Origin: Nitrosomonadales bacterium
GTDB taxonomy: Bacteria; Pseudomonadota; Gammaproteobacteria; Burkholderiales; Gallionellaceae
NCBI GenBank assembly: GCA_016223025.1
Contig: JACRPU010000046.1
Span: 1-52,960, forward strand
DNA: 52,960 bases
Reading direction: 5' to 3'
Part shown: piece by piece, positions 4,481 through 41,090 of the stretch
Numbering within the stretch: the stretch's first letter is position 1
Layout: the number at the start of each line of letters is the position of its first letter
The notes under the pieces: generated by a model
What the model saw: the letters and a program-made list of their open reading frames with translations, nothing else
Told to the model about the DNA's origin: nothing
Databases searched by the model: none
Translations under genes and position numbers: made by a program

Positions 4481-4959
4481 TGAAATGCCCCTTCTGTAAA
4501 GGCCCCGACACCCAGGTGGTGGACACGCGCGAGAGCGAGGAAGGCGACAGCATCCGCCGCCGCCGCCGCTGCCTCTCCTGCGAAAAACGCTTCACCACCT
4601 TCGAGACGGTGGAGTTGCGCATGCCGCAGGTGGTCAAGCAGAACGGGATGCGCAGCGAGTTCGACGAGGAAAAGCTGCGCACCAGCTTCGCGCGCGCGCT
4701 GCACAAGCGCCCGGTTCCCACCGAACTGGTGGATGCCGCGATTGATAACGTGACGCAGAAAGTTTTCGCGCTCGGCGAGCGCGAAGTCGGCTCGCGCCAG
4801 ATCGGCGAAATGGTGATGAAGGAATTGCTGCGGCTGGACAAAGTGGCTTACATCCGCTTCGCTTCGGTGTACAAGAGCTTCCAGGATGTGGGCGATTTCG
4901 CCGAAGCGGTCGAGGCCGTGCGCAAGACCCCGGCGCGGCGGAAGCCAAAACAAACCTAG
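4480..4959 (+). CDS. nrdR: Transcriptional repressor NrdR
   Basis: A zinc-ribbon plus ATP-cone repressor of ribonucleotide reductase genes. The 159-residue protein begins [17 protein letters not shown], with the second zinc pair in [18 protein letters not shown]. An ATP-cone follows ([22 protein letters not shown] through DVGDFAEAV). The start at 4480 matches the invariant MxCPFC N-terminus; an earlier in-frame ATG at 4447 would translate the heptamer array and is unlikely. No clear Shine-Dalgarno sequence precedes the ATG because the tandem array occupies that place. The stop lies 15 bases before ribD, so co-transcription is likely. Confidence 0.95.
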
Positions 4960-30375: not shown

Positions 30376-30726
30376 CTATTCCGGGCGGCGGTCGCCGCTG
30401 GCCAGGGGCTGGCTTCGGATAATCCTGGAGAGCATATAATCGAGCGCGGCCCCGGCCTGGGCATCCGACAGGGAGGCGTCCCCTCCTTTCGGCGGCATCG
30501 CCCCTTTGCCCTTGAGCACCGCGCGCAGCATCTCGGGCTTGCCGCCGGACAGCCTCCCGGCCCAGTCAGATTGCACCCCGAGCCTCGGCGTCCCCGGGGC
30601 GACCGCAACGCCGACCGCATGGCAGACCGCGCAGGCTTGCCGGTAAACATCGCCGCCTTCGTCCGCGAGCGCGGCAACGGGCAGCCCGATCGCACAACAT
30701 AATATCATTAGCTTCAGCGAATTCAT
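30376..30726 (-). CDS. Monohaem cytochrome c5-like protein
   Basis: A 116-residue exported class I cytochrome. The signal peptide ends AALADEG. The haem site is CAVCH at about residue 32 and the distal Met is in GAMPPKGGDASLSD. The spacing and the PPKGG motif are typical of the cytochrome c5 family, and the domain resembles the N-terminus of the tetrahaem fusion at 20672. It is the promoter-proximal gene on the minus strand, divergent from the trihaem operon at 30912. It probably shuttles electrons in the periplasm. Confidence 0.88.
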   Translation of the reverse strand: MNSLKLMILCCAIGLPVAALADEGGDVYRQACAVCHAVGVAVAPGTPRLGVQSDWAGRLSGGKPEMLRAVLKGKGAMPPKGGDASLSDAQAGAALDYMLSRIIRSQPLASGDRRPE

Positions 30727-30911
30727 TCCATCCCTTACACAATTTGCCGGTGCATCGCAGCACCATTGCTATGGCGATGTGCGCCAACCTGGGATAAAAT
30801 GCAAGCCGTGTGCCAACATGGCGTCTTCCGCGTAATAACACCAGAATCGGCTTGAATGTTGCTTGGGCAATTCTTCCCACAATGTTGCGACAAACGAAGG
30901 AAAATCGGCAA
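30727..30911. promoter_or_regulatory. Divergent control region between two cytochrome operons
   Basis: These 185 bases separate the minus-strand monohaem gene from the plus-strand trihaem operon and so must hold both promoters. A dyad-like block TGCGCCAACCTGGG..GTGTGCCAACATGGCG is visible. No consensus sigma-70 pair or Fnr box could be assigned with confidence. Confidence 0.4.
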
Positions 30912-32054
30912 ATGAAAACACCTTGTGCGGTACGTGCGGCGGGCTCCAGGCAAACCGGCATTTTGCGAACCGTGGGTTCATTGATTCTCGGCGCCTGCCT
31001 GGTCTGGGCCGGCAGCGCTTCGATCGCCTGGGCCAACCCCGGCTACCTCGGGCAGAGAAAAACCGGGGTCGGCCCCGAAGCGCTTTACAAGAGACATTGT
31101 TCCGTCTGCCACGGCGACCGCGGCAGCGGCAACAGCAAAGCCGCCAAGGGCCTGGTTTCGCCGCCGCGCGATTTCAGTTCCGCCACCAACCTGACGCGCA
31201 AGAAAATGATTTTTGCCATCGAGAACGGCAAGGCCACCACCGCCATGATGGGATGGAAATCGCGGTTCACGCAGGAGGAAATCGAGGGCATCGCGGACTA
31301 CATCCGCGGCAGATTCATGCTGGTGGCGCTCGATCCGCGCATCGCCCAGGGGCGCGGCGTATACGGGCACTTCTGCCAGGTATGCCACGGGGATCGCGGC
31401 CAGGGGGTCAAATCCAATGAAATGTCCGGTGTGCCGCGCGACCTGACCTCGGCGCAGGCCCAGGCGGGGCTGACCCGCGAGCGCATGGTCAAGTCCGTCA
31501 CGAAAGGCCGGCATGGCACGGTGGCGACCGGTTTCGGCGACCGGCTGACCGCCGAGCACATCGGGGCATCGGTGGATTACATCCGCAGGGTGCTGATTCC
31601 CGACCTCTCGAAATCCGACCCTCCCTATGTCATTCCGGACGCGGCAGAAAGCGCGCCTGTTGCGGCCAGCGCACCGCTGCCGGGAAGTCCGCCGCAGCAG
31701 CCCGCAAAGAAAGACGACATGTACCTGCCGTTACCAGACGGGCTGAAAGGCGACGCGAAGCTCGGCGAGAAGTTTTTCATGGCGAACTGCGCCACCTGCC
31801 ACGGCAAAAAAGGGGACGCGCAAGGGCCGCGCGCTTACTTCATCAACCCCAAGGTGCGCAGCTTCCTGGACGACTATTCGCGCTCCACGCTGGATCGCCC
31901 GACCATTTTCAATTCGGTTTCCAAGGGGCGTCCGGGAACGGAAATGCCATCGTGGAACAAGGTGCTCACCGACCAGGAAATCGCCAACGTGACGGAGTTT
32001 GTCTTCCAGTCCTTCATTCAGCCGAATATCGGGAAGAAAGCCGCCGCCAAGTGA
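30912..32054 (+). CDS. Trihaem cytochrome with three class-I-type domains (1)
   Basis: A 380-residue exported protein. The signal peptide ends SASIAWANPG (about residue 40). Three c-type domains follow: LYKRHCSVCHGDRGSGNSKA, VYGHFCQVCHGDRGQGVK and FFMANCATCHGKKGDAQGPR. Distal Met candidates are in TTAMMGW and GTEMPSWNKVL. Each domain is like those in cbb3-oxidase subunit III or alcohol dehydrogenase cytochrome subunits. ATG 30912 has GAAGGAAAA upstream. The stop overlaps the GTG start of the next gene (GTGA). With that protein it could accept electrons from the conduit cytochromes and pass them to an inner membrane complex; this is inference. Confidence 0.88.
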   Translation: MKTPCAVRAAGSRQTGILRTVGSLILGACLVWAGSASIAWANPGYLGQRKTGVGPEALYKRHCSVCHGDRGSGNSKAAKGLVSPPRDFSSATNLTRKKMIFAIENGKATTAMMGWKSRFTQEEIEGIADYIRGRFMLVALDPRIAQGRGVYGHFCQVCHGDRGQGVKSNEMSGVPRDLTSAQAQAGLTRERMVKSVTKGRHGTVATGFGDRLTAEHIGASVDYIRRVLIPDLSKSDPPYVIPDAAESAPVAASAPLPGSPPQQPAKKDDMYLPLPDGLKGDAKLGEKFFMANCATCHGKKGDAQGPRAYFINPKVRSFLDDYSRSTLDRPTIFNSVSKGRPGTEMPSWNKVLTDQEIANVTEFVFQSFIQPNIGKKAAAK

Positions 32055-33067
32055 AATGGAGATTGATGGCGACCGCTCTGCTGGCCGCCGTTTCCGTTGC
32101 CGCATATGGTGGCCTGCCCGGCCTGGCTCAGGCCGCCGCCAGCGCGGTTCCGCAGACGATTACCCCGGCGCAGCTCGAAGCGGGAAGGAAGATCTATAAC
32201 TTCCGCTGCTATTTCTGCCACGGCTATTCCGGCAACGCGCAGACCGTGGCGGCCAGCTTCCTCAAGCCGCCCCCGGCTGATTTCACCGCCCCCCAGTCCG
32301 CCCGGTTTACGCCGGAACACATCGTTTCCGTATTGCGGAACGGCAAGCCCGGCACGGCGATGCCTTCGTTCCGCAACGTGATCAGCGATACGGAAATGGA
32401 GCTGGCGGCCGCATTCGTGGCGGATGAATTCGTGTTGCGCAAAGCTCCCAACACGCACTACCACACGGCGGAAAACGGCTGGCCGGATCACCGGCGCTAC
32501 CGCGCGGCTTTCCCGTTCGCCACCGGGGAAATTCCCATGAGCCGCCCGTGGGAGGAGCTGAGCGAAGAGCAGGCGCGCGGCAAGCGCCTGTTCCTGAACG
32601 GTTGCGTGACCTGCCACGACCGGGGCGGATCGCGCGAGGGCGGGCGCGCCATCTGGGAAGCGCGCCCCCTGTCCTATCCGCGCAATAATTTTTCCTTTAC
32701 CCCGCTCCCGAAGCTCGATGCGATAGCCGGCGCCAGCCCGTATGCGCTGCACGACATGCCGCTGAAAATCAAGGACATGACCCCGCTCGACCGCCGCGGA
32801 CAAAAACTGTGGCAAGACAACTGCGCCTTCTGCCATGCGACGGACGGCACGGGCAAGAACTGGATCGGCAGCTTCCTCGAACCGCATGCGCGCAACCTGC
32901 GCGATCCGGACTTCATGGGCAGCATGACGCGCGCGCGCCTGAAAGAGGCGATCCGCGAAGGGCTGCCCGGCACCTCGATGCCGGCATGGAAATCCGTCCT
33001 CGCCGACAAGGAAATCGCCGCGCTCGTCGCTTACATAGCCAAGGCTTTCCATCCGTTACCGGAATGA
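32051..33067 (+). CDS. Trihaem cytochrome with three class-I-type domains (2)
   Basis: A 338-residue exported protein with CYFCH, CVTCH and CAFCH. The first and third domains are typical (IYNFRCYFCHGYSGNAQTVA with Met in GTAMPSFRNV; LWQDNCAFCHATDGTGKNWI with Met in GTSMPAWKSVL). The second (FLNGCVTCHDRGGSREGG) lacks an obvious Met loop and may use another ligand. I chose the GTG at 32051 because it gives a basic signal-peptide start (VKWRLMATALLAAV) and overlaps the previous stop; an ATG at 32066 with GGAG upstream is a fair alternative. It is a likely partner or paralogue of the preceding protein. Confidence 0.87.
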   Translation: MKWRLMATALLAAVSVAAYGGLPGLAQAAASAVPQTITPAQLEAGRKIYNFRCYFCHGYSGNAQTVAASFLKPPPADFTAPQSARFTPEHIVSVLRNGKPGTAMPSFRNVISDTEMELAAAFVADEFVLRKAPNTHYHTAENGWPDHRRYRAAFPFATGEIPMSRPWEELSEEQARGKRLFLNGCVTCHDRGGSREGGRAIWEARPLSYPRNNFSFTPLPKLDAIAGASPYALHDMPLKIKDMTPLDRRGQKLWQDNCAFCHATDGTGKNWIGSFLEPHARNLRDPDFMGSMTRARLKEAIREGLPGTSMPAWKSVLADKEIAALVAYIAKAFHPLPE

Positions 33068-36490: not shown

Positions 36491-37456
36491 CTACTTGCCT
36501 CCGGCCCCGTCTTCCGCCAGCCTGTCCATGCTCAACAGAATGGTGTTGACCATGTCTTCTTCGACATCAATTACTTTTTTCTGCTGGTTGGTTCTGGCAA
36601 AGTACGCTCTCCTCGCCCGGTCTTTGTCGCCGAAGGTAAGTATGTAGGGCGTTTCTTTTTTCTCCTGGTATACCGTCAATTGCAGCATCGGTGAGGACAG
36701 GCCAAACGGCGCCAGGTCGGTCGGGTTTTCGTCGGCGAACGCCTTGATTTCCCCGTTTTTTATCACGTAGAGGAGTTCCAGCACTTTGGCCATGGAAGCC
36801 ATTTCTTTCGTCGGTTCAAGCAGATTCCATTTTCCCTGATCCTGCTCGACGACCACTCTGCGCCCATCCTTTTTCACGATTTCGAGCCGCCGCATCTTTA
36901 CGGGGTCGAAATCAAAAATGGTTTTGTCCCGCAGCGCGTAGGCGTCCTTGCTCGCTTCTTTCTTGAGATCGGAATGTACGCGGTACACCTCCGGCCTCCC
37001 CTTGAACATGGCATACGCCACATTGTTGGTAGGCCCCCTTTCTCCGAAAACAATGACAGTTTCCCCATTTGCGGACTTCACTCCCATTTCAACCTCGGGG
37101 TCACCCAGCCCGAGCTCGACCAGTTTGGCATTCTCGACTTTTTCAAACAGCACCGCATCCTTTCTGGACGTGACGACGTTTGTCAATAACTTTTCTATCG
37201 CCCTGGCATCCCCTTTTGCGCTTATCGGGTGTACCACCTGCCATCCGTCTTTCTCCCGAACCACCTTGATCTGACGGTTTTCCTTGAGGAAATTGATCCG
37301 GAATTCCGAGACATCCTTCACGGCAGTAGGCAGCAGTTTTAACTGCTCTTCCTTTAACTGTTTAACCGCCTCTTCCTTCTTGTCGAAGAAAAAGAATGCG
37401 CCGCTCAGTGCGATCAACACGATAAACCAGAAGAGGGTCTTCCTGGTAAAGTTCAC
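36491..37456 (-). CDS. DUF4340 protein of a Gld-type ABC cluster
   Basis: A 321-residue protein with one N-terminal membrane helix (LFWFIVLIALSGAFFFF, residues 8-24) and a large extracytoplasmic domain of DUF4340 type with repeated beta-rich units (VVREKDGWQVVHPISAKGDA, VVEQDQGKWNLLEPTKEMAS, LTFGDKDRARRAYFARTNQ). DUF4340 genes typically follow GldA/GldF/GldG-like ABC genes, as here; its start overlaps the GldG-like stop by four bases. The cargo of these transporters is not known outside gliding bacteria. Confidence 0.85.
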   Translation of the reverse strand: MNFTRKTLFWFIVLIALSGAFFFFDKKEEAVKQLKEEQLKLLPTAVKDVSEFRINFLKENRQIKVVREKDGWQVVHPISAKGDARAIEKLLTNVVTSRKDAVLFEKVENAKLVELGLGDPEVEMGVKSANGETVIVFGERGPTNNVAYAMFKGRPEVYRVHSDLKKEASKDAYALRDKTIFDFDPVKMRRLEIVKKDGRRVVVEQDQGKWNLLEPTKEMASMAKVLELLYVIKNGEIKAFADENPTDLAPFGLSSPMLQLTVYQEKKETPYILTFGDKDRARRAYFARTNQQKKVIDVEEDMVNTILLSMDRLAEDGAGGK

Positions 37457-39342
37457 GCGCCCCGCCTTCTTCTGGCGGTTATACCCAGACCCGTCACCAA
37501 CAGCAGCGAGGGCACAATCACCACGGAAAGCCAGAAAACAGTTTTGCCCTGAACGGGGGTCATCAGGAGGGGCGTAAGGCCCGGTTCCTTTTTCCTTACC
37601 GATATCAAAACATGCTCCTCTGCCAGCCAGTTAAGCATGTTCAGGAGAAAATCCTTGTTTCCTGCCTTCATGAACTTGTTGCTTGCGAAATCCGAATCTC
37701 CCACGACCAGAAATTTACCCCAGGTTTTAAGGCTATCCTGCTCTGCCCCGGCTTTAATGTCCTTGGTTTTATTGTCCCCCAGGCTTACCTCCACCGCGGT
37801 GACTGCCACCACACTGATGGGGCCGCGTTTGTGCTTGCCAGCGTTAAATTCCTCGTCTTCCCTGGTAAGCTTCTTTATATCGCTGGTCACCGCCCAGCTC
37901 TTGTCGCTGGTTTTGGCGAGGTCGTAGCTTCCCTTGGCGGGATCTTCCTTTATATGGACAGAACGGGCAAACGGGAAAAAAGTAAACTGTTCAAATTCGC
38001 GGGTGACAGGGTGATTCTTGTCATATTGAACCACCACGGGTATGGCGATACTGCTGCCCGAAACCTGGCTCGTCTTATCGAAAATGAGGTCGTTGCCGAG
38101 CTCGAAGCCGAACCCGCCCAGATAGCCTGCGATCTTTGGCAATCCGCCCGGATCAACCATAAAGAGCGCCCGCCCGCCTTTTCTTACGAACGCGGTTATC
38201 TTGTCCAGCTCGGATGGCAAATAGTCCGCTTCGGGGCCGCTTACCACCAGTACGGCAGCATCTTCCGGCACCTTTTCCACATTGACCAATGCCAGGTCGC
38301 GCACCTGGTGGTTTTCCCTCTCGATCGCTTCTTTGACATAGGAATAACCATTTTCCTCCTTGCTGTCGATGCGCTTCTCGCCGTGCCCGGAAACAAAATA
38401 GAAAACCTTGATGTCTTTACTGAGCAGCTTCAGCAGGGAATTGGTGAGCCTGTTTTCAGATTCGGTGCCCTCGACAATCTCTTTCTTGTCGCCATGCTTT
38501 AATATCGTCGTTCTGTAAGACGTAATTTCATACTTTGCCGTTTCTATCGGATCCCTGTCCGGGTCCACGAAGCGGAAGCTGAATTTTGGCGAGTGGTAGG
38601 AATATTCGCTCAACAGGTCGGACATCGCCTGTCTCGTCCTCTGGTCGCCGCGATAGAAGGCGATCGCCTCGACATCCTCTTTCAGCGCCTTTAATATCTT
38701 GACCGTATGGGCAGAGAGGGTATACCGGTTGTCCTGTGTCAAGTCGACTCTCACCTTGTATTTGACCGACATGCCAGCGATGAGCGCGATGATCACAAAA
38801 AACACCAGGCTCATGACCGCCGTATTAAATGCGTACTTGGTGGAACGCTTGGTGATGAATTCCCTGATTTCCGGGAAATAGGTATAGAAAAACAGCAGCA
38901 GTACCAGAAGCCCGAACCAGATCAGCGACAACGGCAGATTGCCCATCTCGCCAGTTATCGCATAAGTGATCCCCCCTGCTATCAGCAGAAAAACGGCCAG
39001 CAGTCCCATTGGCGCAAACAATCCCTTGGCTGCCCCCTTATTATTAGGGGGCGCATCATTCTTTGGGCGACCGGAAGCCCGCGATTGCTTTGATTGATTG
39101 TTAGACGTAACGACACCATCATCACTTTCGACGAGTGTTGCGTCATATCCCGCCCGCTTCACAGGATCTGAAAGCACTTCATACGCGCCGTTAATTTCTT
39201 TTAGGTGTTTTTCTGCGTCTTGGTTATTTGGATTTTTGTCTGGGTGGTAACGCTGGACAAGGCTCTTGTACGCTGCCCTAATAGTTTCAGGATCAGCGTT
39301 TCGGTTGACTTGCAGCACATCGTATAAGTTTTTCTTAGTCAT
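37453..39342 (-). CDS. J-domain fused to GldG-like ABC accessory protein
   Basis: A 629-residue fusion. Residues 1-70 are a clear DnaJ domain: NLYDVLQVNRNADPETIRAA, with the invariant HPD in RYHPDKNPN and a final helix (LKEINGAYEVLSDP). A hydrophilic linker (about 72-108) leads to three membrane helices, then a GldG-type extracytoplasmic domain (VDLTQDNRYTLSAHTVKIL, VFYFVSGHGEKRI, LVVSGPEADYLPSELDKITA, GRALFMVDPGGLPKIAGYLG) and a last helix with a basic end. Translation is continuous with no stop or shift. The J-domain would face the cytosol and could recruit DnaK to the transporter. The gene lies between the permease and DUF4340 genes. Confidence 0.9.
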   Translation of the reverse strand: MTKKNLYDVLQVNRNADPETIRAAYKSLVQRYHPDKNPNNQDAEKHLKEINGAYEVLSDPVKRAGYDATLVESDDGVVTSNNQSKQSRASGRPKNDAPPNNKGAAKGLFAPMGLLAVFLLIAGGITYAITGEMGNLPLSLIWFGLLVLLLFFYTYFPEIREFITKRSTKYAFNTAVMSLVFFVIIALIAGMSVKYKVRVDLTQDNRYTLSAHTVKILKALKEDVEAIAFYRGDQRTRQAMSDLLSEYSYHSPKFSFRFVDPDRDPIETAKYEITSYRTTILKHGDKKEIVEGTESENRLTNSLLKLLSKDIKVFYFVSGHGEKRIDSKEENGYSYVKEAIERENHQVRDLALVNVEKVPEDAAVLVVSGPEADYLPSELDKITAFVRKGGRALFMVDPGGLPKIAGYLGGFGFELGNDLIFDKTSQVSGSSIAIPVVVQYDKNHPVTREFEQFTFFPFARSVHIKEDPAKGSYDLAKTSDKSWAVTSDIKKLTREDEEFNAGKHKRGPISVVAVTAVEVSLGDNKTKDIKAGAEQDSLKTWGKFLVVGDSDFASNKFMKAGNKDFLLNMLNWLAEEHVLISVRKKEPGLTPLLMTPVQGKTVFWLSVVIVPSLLLVTGLGITARRRRGA

Positions 39343-39378
39343 TGATGTTGCCTATCGATTGAAGGGGTTTAGCTTTCA

Positions 39379-40161
39379 TTATCTCCACCTCTTCGTTTCC
39401 AGACTCCTGAGAGTAAAGAACAGGAACAGCACGATGAAACAAAGGTAGTAAATGATGTCCGCCGAATCCACGACCCCTTTCGACATGCTTTCAATATGCT
39501 CGTTAATCGAAAGATAGCTGAGGAATCGGCCCAGCCCGGCAGATACCAGCGGGGCGGAATAGCTTATCAGCCAGAAAAAGAACAGCATGGCAAAGGATAT
39601 TGAAGCGGAGACGATCTGGTTTTCCGTCAGCGACGAAGTAAAAAGCCCCAGGGAGATGGCTGATGCCCCCAGCAGAACAAGCCCCAGATAACCCGTCCAT
39701 ATCGGCACCACTTCCGGTTCACCCAGCACAACGAGAAGGACGGGGTAAGTAGCTGTCAGCAATATCATGGTCAGCACGACCACGAGGCAGGCCAGATATT
39801 TCCCCAGCACTACGTCAATATCATTGATCGGGAAGGTCAGAAGCAGTTCGATCGTGCCGGTCTTCTTCTCTTCGGCCAGGAGCCTCATGGTCAACAGCGG
39901 CGTCATCATCAGCAGAATAATGCCAATAGTTCCAAACAGCGGCCTTATTACCGTCTCGTTGATATTCAACAACTGGTATTGCTTTGCCAGCATGGGGTCG
40001 GACTGCGCCTGATAACTGACGATCGAAAAGGTGGCGGTGAGGTTATAGAAGAAATAACCCGTCATCAGCAAAAACATGATGATCACTATGTAAACCGTAA
40101 GCGAGCTGAAATAGGATCTCAGTTCCCTGTTGAGGATAAGGCTGACATTCCTGATATTCAT
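39379..40161 (-). CDS. ABC-2 type permease, GldF-like
   Basis: A 260-residue integral membrane protein with six hydrophobic helices (for example VYIVIIMFLLMTGYFFYNL, IGIILLMMTPLLTMRL, YLGLVLLGASAISLGLF). The cytosolic segment TMRLLAEEKKTGTIELLLTF is the conserved E-loop-like coupling region of ABC-2 exporters. It overlaps the ATPase stop by four bases and precedes the J-domain/GldG gene by 36 bases. With those proteins it should form an exporter of the Gld/ copper- or polymer-linked ABC-2 group. Confidence 0.9.
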   Translation of the reverse strand: MNIRNVSLILNRELRSYFSSLTVYIVIIMFLLMTGYFFYNLTATFSIVSYQAQSDPMLAKQYQLLNINETVIRPLFGTIGIILLMMTPLLTMRLLAEEKKTGTIELLLTFPINDIDVVLGKYLACLVVVLTMILLTATYPVLLVVLGEPEVVPIWTGYLGLVLLGASAISLGLFTSSLTENQIVSASISFAMLFFFWLISYSAPLVSAGLGRFLSYLSINEHIESMSKGVVDSADIIYYLCFIVLFLFFTLRSLETKRWR

Positions 40162-41090
40162 GCCTCTTCCTTTGTGACCAGCTTGATAAAAATATCTTCC
40201 AGGCTAACTTCAAGAAGGCGCATTTCCACAAGCTCAAATCTGTTTCTTTCAATCATGGCCTGGATGCTTTGCCTTCCCTGTTTCTCGTCTTCAAGCACGA
40301 CAATAAATACATTGCCATCGCCTGACGCAGGCTCTCTTTCTGCTCCTTTAATGCCACCCACGCGGGAAAGTTCCTGCTCGATCGTCTGCGCATTACCGTT
40401 GATGCGTAATAACATTCTTTTTGCGCTATCCGTTGCAAGGTTCTCCGGCCTGTCTTCCGCCACCACTTTTCCCTTGTTGATAATGATTACCCTGCCGCAC
40501 AGGATGCTGACTTCCGGGAGAATGTGGGTGCTCAGAATAACGGTGTGCTTGCCCGCCAGATCCTTGATCAGATTTCTGATCTCCTTGATCTGCTTCGGGT
40601 CAAGCCCTACCGTAGGCTCGTCGAGAATCAAAACCTCCGGGTCGTTGACCAATGCCTGCGCAATGCCGACCCTTTGCCTGTATCCCCCGGAGATCGTGCT
40701 GATCAACTTGCCGGAAACATCGCCGAGGCCGCAATCATCCATGACCTTGGCGGCTTTTCGGTTGACCTCTTTGGCGGGCGTTCCCTTGATGGCCGCCACA
40801 AAACGAAGATAGTCATCCACCTTCATGTCTTCGTAAAGCGGGACTCTCTGCGGGAGGTAGCCAATCCTTTTGCGCACGTTCAGGGAGTCTTCGAAGCAGT
40901 TGTAACCCGCCACGATGGCTTTTCCTCTGGTGGGGGGAAAGAAGCAGGTCAGGATGCGCATGACCGTGGTTTTCCCTGCCCCGTTGGGGCCCAGAAAACC
41001 AAGAATCTCGCCTTTCTCTACCGTGAAGCTGATGTTGTCAATGGCGCGGAACTCGCCATAGTCTTTGGTTAAATTTTCGACTTCGATCAT
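40158..41090 (-). CDS. ABC transporter ATP-binding protein, GldA-like
   Basis: A 310-residue ATPase. It contains Walker A GPNGAGKTTVMR, Q-loop YLPQRVPLYEDMKV, signature TISGGYRQRVGIAQAL, Walker B VLILDEPTVGLDP and switch His ILSTHILPEV. The C-terminal 80 residues are the DUF4162-like extension typical of exporters. First gene of the minus-strand cluster; the AT-rich leader at 41091-41230 probably holds its promoter. It couples ATP hydrolysis to the GldF-like permease. Confidence 0.93.
   Translation of the reverse strand: MIEVENLTKDYGEFRAIDNISFTVEKGEILGFLGPNGAGKTTVMRILTCFFPPTRGKAIVAGYNCFEDSLNVRKRIGYLPQRVPLYEDMKVDDYLRFVAAIKGTPAKEVNRKAAKVMDDCGLGDVSGKLISTISGGYRQRVGIAQALVNDPEVLILDEPTVGLDPKQIKEIRNLIKDLAGKHTVILSTHILPEVSILCGRVIIINKGKVVAEDRPENLATDSAKRMLLRINGNAQTIEQELSRVGGIKGAEREPASGDGNVFIVVLEDEKQGRQSIQAMIERNRFELVEMRLLEVSLEDIFIKLVTKEEA

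Follow-up and report, generated by a model that had tools for sequence, protein, structure and literature searches.

A J-domain joined to a GldG-like ABC exporter subunit by a 343-bp insertion in a Nitrosomonadales bacterium

We analysed a window of 52,960 nt from a Nitrosomonadales bacterium of the iron-oxidiser type (GCA_016223025.1, JACRPU010000046.1 positions 1 to 52,960, forward strand) and found an open reading frame in which a J-domain is joined to a GldG-like subunit of an ABC exporter (Table 1). A segment of a class C J-domain gene was probably inserted near the start of gldG and gave one fused membrane protein, which would recruit DnaK beside the exporter. J-domains decide the site of Hsp70 action and are known in many partner contexts. 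The fusion is ordinary in principle and unusual in its partner.

It had been proposed from the sequence alone that an intact J-domain with its HPD motif, a linker, membrane helices and a GldG-type domain lie in one uninterrupted frame. This held up, since the 629 codons from the ATG on the minus strand contain no internal stop, with stops on the plus strand. The Pfam matches to DnaJ, DUF7088 and ABC_transp_aux all exceed the gathering cut-offs, and their E-values exclude chance. Across the joint (codons ~70-105) a single frame is open, and each other frame of the insert carries several stops. The protein has four hydrophobic helices. The basic loop around residues 156-174 (FPEIREFITKRSTKYAFNT) and the RRRR tail place the N-terminus inside by the positive-inside rule, which suggests a cytosolic J-domain and an extracytoplasmic GldG domain and agrees with the topology that had been proposed. 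The predicted structure of the fusion was too poor to use (mean pLDDT 35).

Table 1. Features of the fused gene, its insert and its operon, with positions in the window
Feature	Position	Strand	Basis or remark
DUF4340 protein, next operon gene	36491..37456	minus	Pfam; 73-81% identical in relatives
J-domain-GldG fusion ORF, 629 aa	37453..39342	minus	ORF list, translation, Pfam
C-terminal membrane helix, residues 603-621	37480..37536	minus	hydropathy
ABC_transp_aux domain (PF09822), residues 313-569	37636..38406	minus	Pfam, E 1.2e-29
DUF7088 domain, residues 203-285	38488..38736	minus	Pfam, E 5.8e-15
Membrane helix 3, residues 175-193	38764..38820	minus	hydropathy
Membrane helix 2, residues 136-154	38881..38937	minus	hydropathy
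Membrane helix 1, residues 107-125, native to GldG	38968..39024	minus	hydropathy
Codon 112 ATG, possible internal start of J-less GldG	39007..39009	minus	TTG, TTA or CTG in seven aligned relatives
Inserted segment, 343 bp: J start codon, J-domain, linker	39029..39371	minus	absent from all orthologs with readable 5' end
Linker, residues 68-104, ~37 residues	39031..39141	minus	homologous to sister-species J-TM linker up to residue 97
Hairpin GCCCCCT-AATAATA-AGGGGGC, 3' end of insert; TAATAATAA in unused frame	39032..39052	minus	fold no stronger than in shuffled sequences, z -0.27
J-domain, residues 5-67, HPD at 33-35	39142..39330	minus	PF00226 (Pfam), E 3.7e-23, 81.9 bits against a cut-off of 27.8; alignment to DnaJ of PDB 5nro
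Original gldG ATG, 14-codon leader ORF (MKAKPLQSIGNIND), TAA overlapping J ATG (AATGACTAA); old ribosome-binding site GGTGGAG	39335..39379	minus	sequence, orthologs
GldF-like ABC-2 permease	39379..40161	minus	Pfam, NCBIfam; 86-96% identical in relatives
GldA-like ABC ATPase	40158..41090	minus	Pfam, NCBIfam; 82-93% identical in relatives

The fused gene is the third of an ATPase-permease-GldG-DUF4340 operon. ABC_transp_aux and DUF7088, together with the GldA-like ATPase and GldF-like permease in the same operon, identify its product as a GldG-like auxiliary subunit of an ABC exporter. The NCBIfam GldG model TIGR03521 matches the protein with E 8.3e-27, and the 94 bits lie well under the equivalog cut-off of 389.85 bits, so that the protein is GldG-like and not a GldG equivalog. 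At the level of the sequence, a dN/dS of 0.06/0.68 (~0.09) against the nearest ortholog shows purifying selection acting on the GldG part. Its unique departures at otherwise invariant columns (11, against 5-20 in relatives) are not in excess; one of them, L112M, makes an internal ATG. By these measures the GldG part shows no decay, and from this we infer that it still serves the exporter. A defence system was rejected as a candidate, as padloc matches the ATPase only, and generically. The window further contains, at 30376-33067, a row of several ORFs resembling haem-binding (CxxCH) cytochromes c.

The same operon gene is present in 8 of 158 family genomes, including the fusion itself and one fragment (the G086 ortholog, which has no 5' end). 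A Gammaproteobacteria MAG carries a further ortholog, and two genomes that are more distant within the phylum carry others with 64% and 55% identity. All nine orthologs with a readable 5' end, each from a distinct genome (G001, G012, G102/L037, G124/L039, G070/L040, G077/L041, L038, G1141 and G937; 55-88% identical to the fusion), start with MKAKGLFAPLGLL or similar directly after the permease stop and have no J-domain. The fusion is evidently not ancestral; this comparison makes it an insertion specific to its lineage. Within the family the window's operon has a patchy distribution, unlike a second GldG-like gene (L002/L036; G000 C37:21715-23001), which is 26% identical, has the common ~450-aa form and is widespread.

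An architecture search over 158 family, 369 class and 398 phylum genomes gave no second J-GldG protein among the matches listed, and none of the GldG-like matches listed from the class and phylum genomes aligned from before query residue 96. Twenty-two homologs, the majority of which have unusually long open frames, were inspected directly in two scans and contain no J-domain; the second of the scans recovered positive controls. Among the papers in the library searched, none described such a fusion. The expectation that known GldG-like proteins do not carry a J-domain is thus borne out in this set, and the fusion was seen in one genome only.

At the insertion site, relatives read ...GGTGGAGATAATGAAAGC/CAAGGGATTG..., where the slash marks a joint, and the window reads ...GGTGGAGATAATGAAAGC/TAAACCCCTTCAATCG...AATAATAAGGGGGCAGC/CAAGGGATTG.... 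The original gldG ATG is now parted from the rest of gldG by 343 bp, and both flanks of the insert belong to the same conserved operon. An alternative reading of the borders gives the imperfect direct repeat AGCTAAA/AGCCAAG. The insert has a GC content of 46.6%, lower than the remainder of gldG (52.3%) and the window as a whole (59.8%), and only 1.6% of stretches of equal length are as low. No second copy of the insert was found in its genome. C5 and G5 runs adjoin the joint, where a one-base error would alter the reading, and one extra C at the hairpin would stop the J frame (TAATAATAA). A mobile element was rejected: the insert ends share only a CCCCTT/AAGGGG inverted repeat that does no better than shuffled sequence (17.6%), flanking duplication is limited to AGC or the imperfect repeat above, no other copy exists in the genome, and neither end has a convincing integron site. 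Neither the whole protein nor the J part gave anything useful on a viral origin when scanned against viral contigs.

The closest DNA relative that we found is a free-standing gene of a sister species (G001, contig C71, locus L035 5907-6362), whose product is a 152-residue J-like protein with a linker and a membrane helix (J-TM). Nucleotides 17-283 of the insert, including untranslated bases 5' of the ATG, align to this gene with 67-70% DNA identity (67% over 267 bp). The sequence-only reading had suggested checking relatives for conservation of the HPD motif and the linker. The linker does align, up to residue 97, and the HPD motif is lost in the sister-species copy (HYRSVEK), which still scores as DnaJ. 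The J-TM gene belongs to an accessory island of ~4.4 kb that separates ispF from ispD; in the window's genome (L142, G000 C16:54000-56500) these two genes are adjacent and form an empty site. Protein and DNA searches found no resident donor in the genome of the fusion. Besides the J-TM gene without HPD, the island (L035 3560-8000, G001 C71) contains, among others, an ankyrin-like ORF. Two loci (L035 7097-7134; L141 about 4560-4625, G000 C83) share short repeats that end in GAATAACTGTTRGGC, recall an integron attC core and lie away from the window's insert.

A tree of 51 J-domains separates that of the fusion from the DnaJ clade (100/100) and sets it next to membrane-anchored J-proteins from family f37 and from Gallionellaceae; with few columns, only the deep split is reliable. 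This split rules out a J-domain derived from DnaJ. The domain is up to 72% identical to the anchored f37 proteins over 68 columns, and dS between them is saturated. As judged from the tree, it belongs with the membrane-anchored class C J-domain proteins and not with DnaJ. As expected for class C, the fusion scores above the PF00226 cut-off with an HPD motif, Pfam finds no G/F region, zinc finger or DnaJ C-terminal domains, and the NCBIfam DnaJ models match the J part only. It is not a tail-anchored J-domain protein, as the helix at 107 is followed by three more helices and an extracytoplasmic domain. Compared to E. coli DnaJ (PDB 5nro), the fusion has kept R22, Y25, K26, H33-P34-D35, N37, K48, D59 and R63, while R27 is S and R36 is K. 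Most of the compared residues, which we take to be DnaK contacts, are therefore kept, and the same genome encodes GrpE, DnaK, DnaJ and a second full-length Hsp70.

The nearest kin of the J-domain are stand-alone membrane-anchored J-proteins, for which we found no linkage to this exporter. Such anchored J-proteins (L046-L060, L075-L083) have varied C-termini, with extracytoplasmic domains in Gallionellaceae and proline-rich sequence plus ankyrin repeats in f37, and J-TM proteins were found on plasmids too. Among anchored relatives with a single helix, most have its start at residue ~98-108, compared to 107 in the fusion, while a few show no helix above threshold or one further on. This near-constant spacing between J-domain and helix indicates that the fusion swaps one anchor for another: a tail-anchored co-chaperone has, on this comparison, lost its own membrane helix and taken GldG helix 1 at almost equal spacing.

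We propose that the donor segment comprised the start codon, J-domain and linker of a tail-anchored class C J gene, without its membrane helix, and would have entered the exporter operon just past the gldG start codon region. The insert length of 343 bp is not divisible by three, and the old gldG ATG consequently leads into a 14-codon leader that stops at the J start. The overlap of leader stop and J start would suit translational coupling, and ribosomes may start at the old gldG site, read the leader and re-initiate at the J ATG. The J-domain would lie in the cytosol, ~37 residues from GldG helix 1, which is near the spacing of anchored J-proteins. At the membrane, next to the exporter, it should bind DnaK and stimulate the DnaK ATPase, much in the way of free anchored J-proteins. 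The GldG part would keep its exporter role and the J-domain would not be essential to the transport cycle; any benefit would come from DnaK acting locally, either on the exporter itself or on membrane clients close by. It is likely that the fusion brings DnaK to the exporter's cytoplasmic face.

The single genome, the C5 and G5 runs beside the joint and the internal ATG from L112M, which could yield a J-less GldG, count against this explanation. It is possible, if on balance unlikely, that two products are made, the J extension part-time and a nearly normal GldG from an internal start (ATG codon 112 or TTG 108); this would be compatible with the fusion explanation. Of the aligned genomes, only that of the fusion has the codon-112 ATG, which is preceded by AAGGGA at 12 nt and by AAGGGGG at a greater distance. 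However, the spacing of AAGGGA is longer than optimal, helix 1 would lose its beginning with a start at codon 112, and the J ATG offers a coupled start.

We regard it as unlikely that the insertion is recent and neutral, with the J-domain brought into frame by chance, tolerated by GldG as an N-terminal tag, and useless or near decay. An in-frame insertion has a chance of one in three, the fusion occurs in a single genome, the AT-rich segment is not yet ameliorated (GC3 0.44 in the J codons vs 0.67 after them), and the stand-alone copy of the sister species is already without HPD. Nevertheless, HPD and the J fold signature are kept over ~100 codons with no stop, and the joint preserves the J-to-membrane spacing of the parent family.

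The sequence-only reading had gone further and made the J-domain a working part of the exporter, with DnaK delivering cargo to the transporter or remodelling it during its cycle. The cytosolic side, the tether to the transporter and the presence of DnaK would suit such a role, but we consider it improbable: the domain came with a lineage-specific insertion, the nine close relatives whose 5' end is readable do without it, as do the other listed GldG-like proteins examined, and its own relatives are unlinked to exporters. As the relatives show, the domain is not required by the exporter.

An assembly or sequencing artefact, with the insert or the frame across the joint wrong, is very improbable even for a draft genome of 137 contigs with short homopolymers at the joint, where one extra C gives the TAATAATAA stops, since to form a chimera two joins would have to fall within 343 bp, linking parts of a single intact operon, and the genome has no second insert copy that could cause misassembly. 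It had been stated beforehand that relatives all lacking the J-domain together with an assembly join would speak against the fusion; the former is what we found in every close relative with a readable 5' end, while a join is not indicated, as the two flanks are parts of one conserved operon and the insert occurs only once in the genome.

The value of the J-GldG fusion lies mainly in the legibility of the event, with an intact target in close relatives, an insert with well-defined ends and a donor relative in the sister species. It offers a clean natural test of whether a J-domain placed on a transporter changes that transporter, and suggests that a folded domain in the cytosol, added at the N-terminus, is tolerated by GldG-like exporters. 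The fusion is not proof of a new mechanism of export. That a new chimera has arisen, an exporter subunit with its own DnaK site that puts transporter assembly, stability or substrate hand-over under Hsp70 control, the co-chaperone having exchanged its anchor for a transporter, is a speculative and rather doubtful view.

The late addition of a J-domain to an existing protein is an idea reportedly due to Sahi et al. 2010. It has been described as a proposal for some class C proteins (PMC8215388), where, as in the fusion, an established protein gains chaperone recruitment; the present event differs in being readable base by base against relatives without the domain, and its host is an ABC exporter subunit. 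E. coli DjlB and DjlC are described as tail-anchored class C J-domain proteins (PMC8215388). Like the J-linker-TM proteins of Gallionellaceae and f37, they share with the fusion an N-terminal, cytosolic J-domain and a ~35-residue linker, with a helix at residue ~100 in most. In the fusion, unlike the tail-anchored proteins, the helix and all that follows are an exporter subunit and not an anchor of its own, whereas the f37 proteins continue into their proline-rich and ankyrin-repeat C-termini. With the GldG-like proteins (PF09822/DUF7088) of GldA-GldF-GldG-DUF4340 operons the fusion has in common the operon order, ATPase, permease, extracytoplasmic domain and C-terminal helix, and it is 55-88% identical to its orthologs among them. 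It has two N-terminal helices more than the common ~450-aa form, scores under the TIGR03521 equivalog cut-off, and differs from all other GldG-like members seen by its J-domain.
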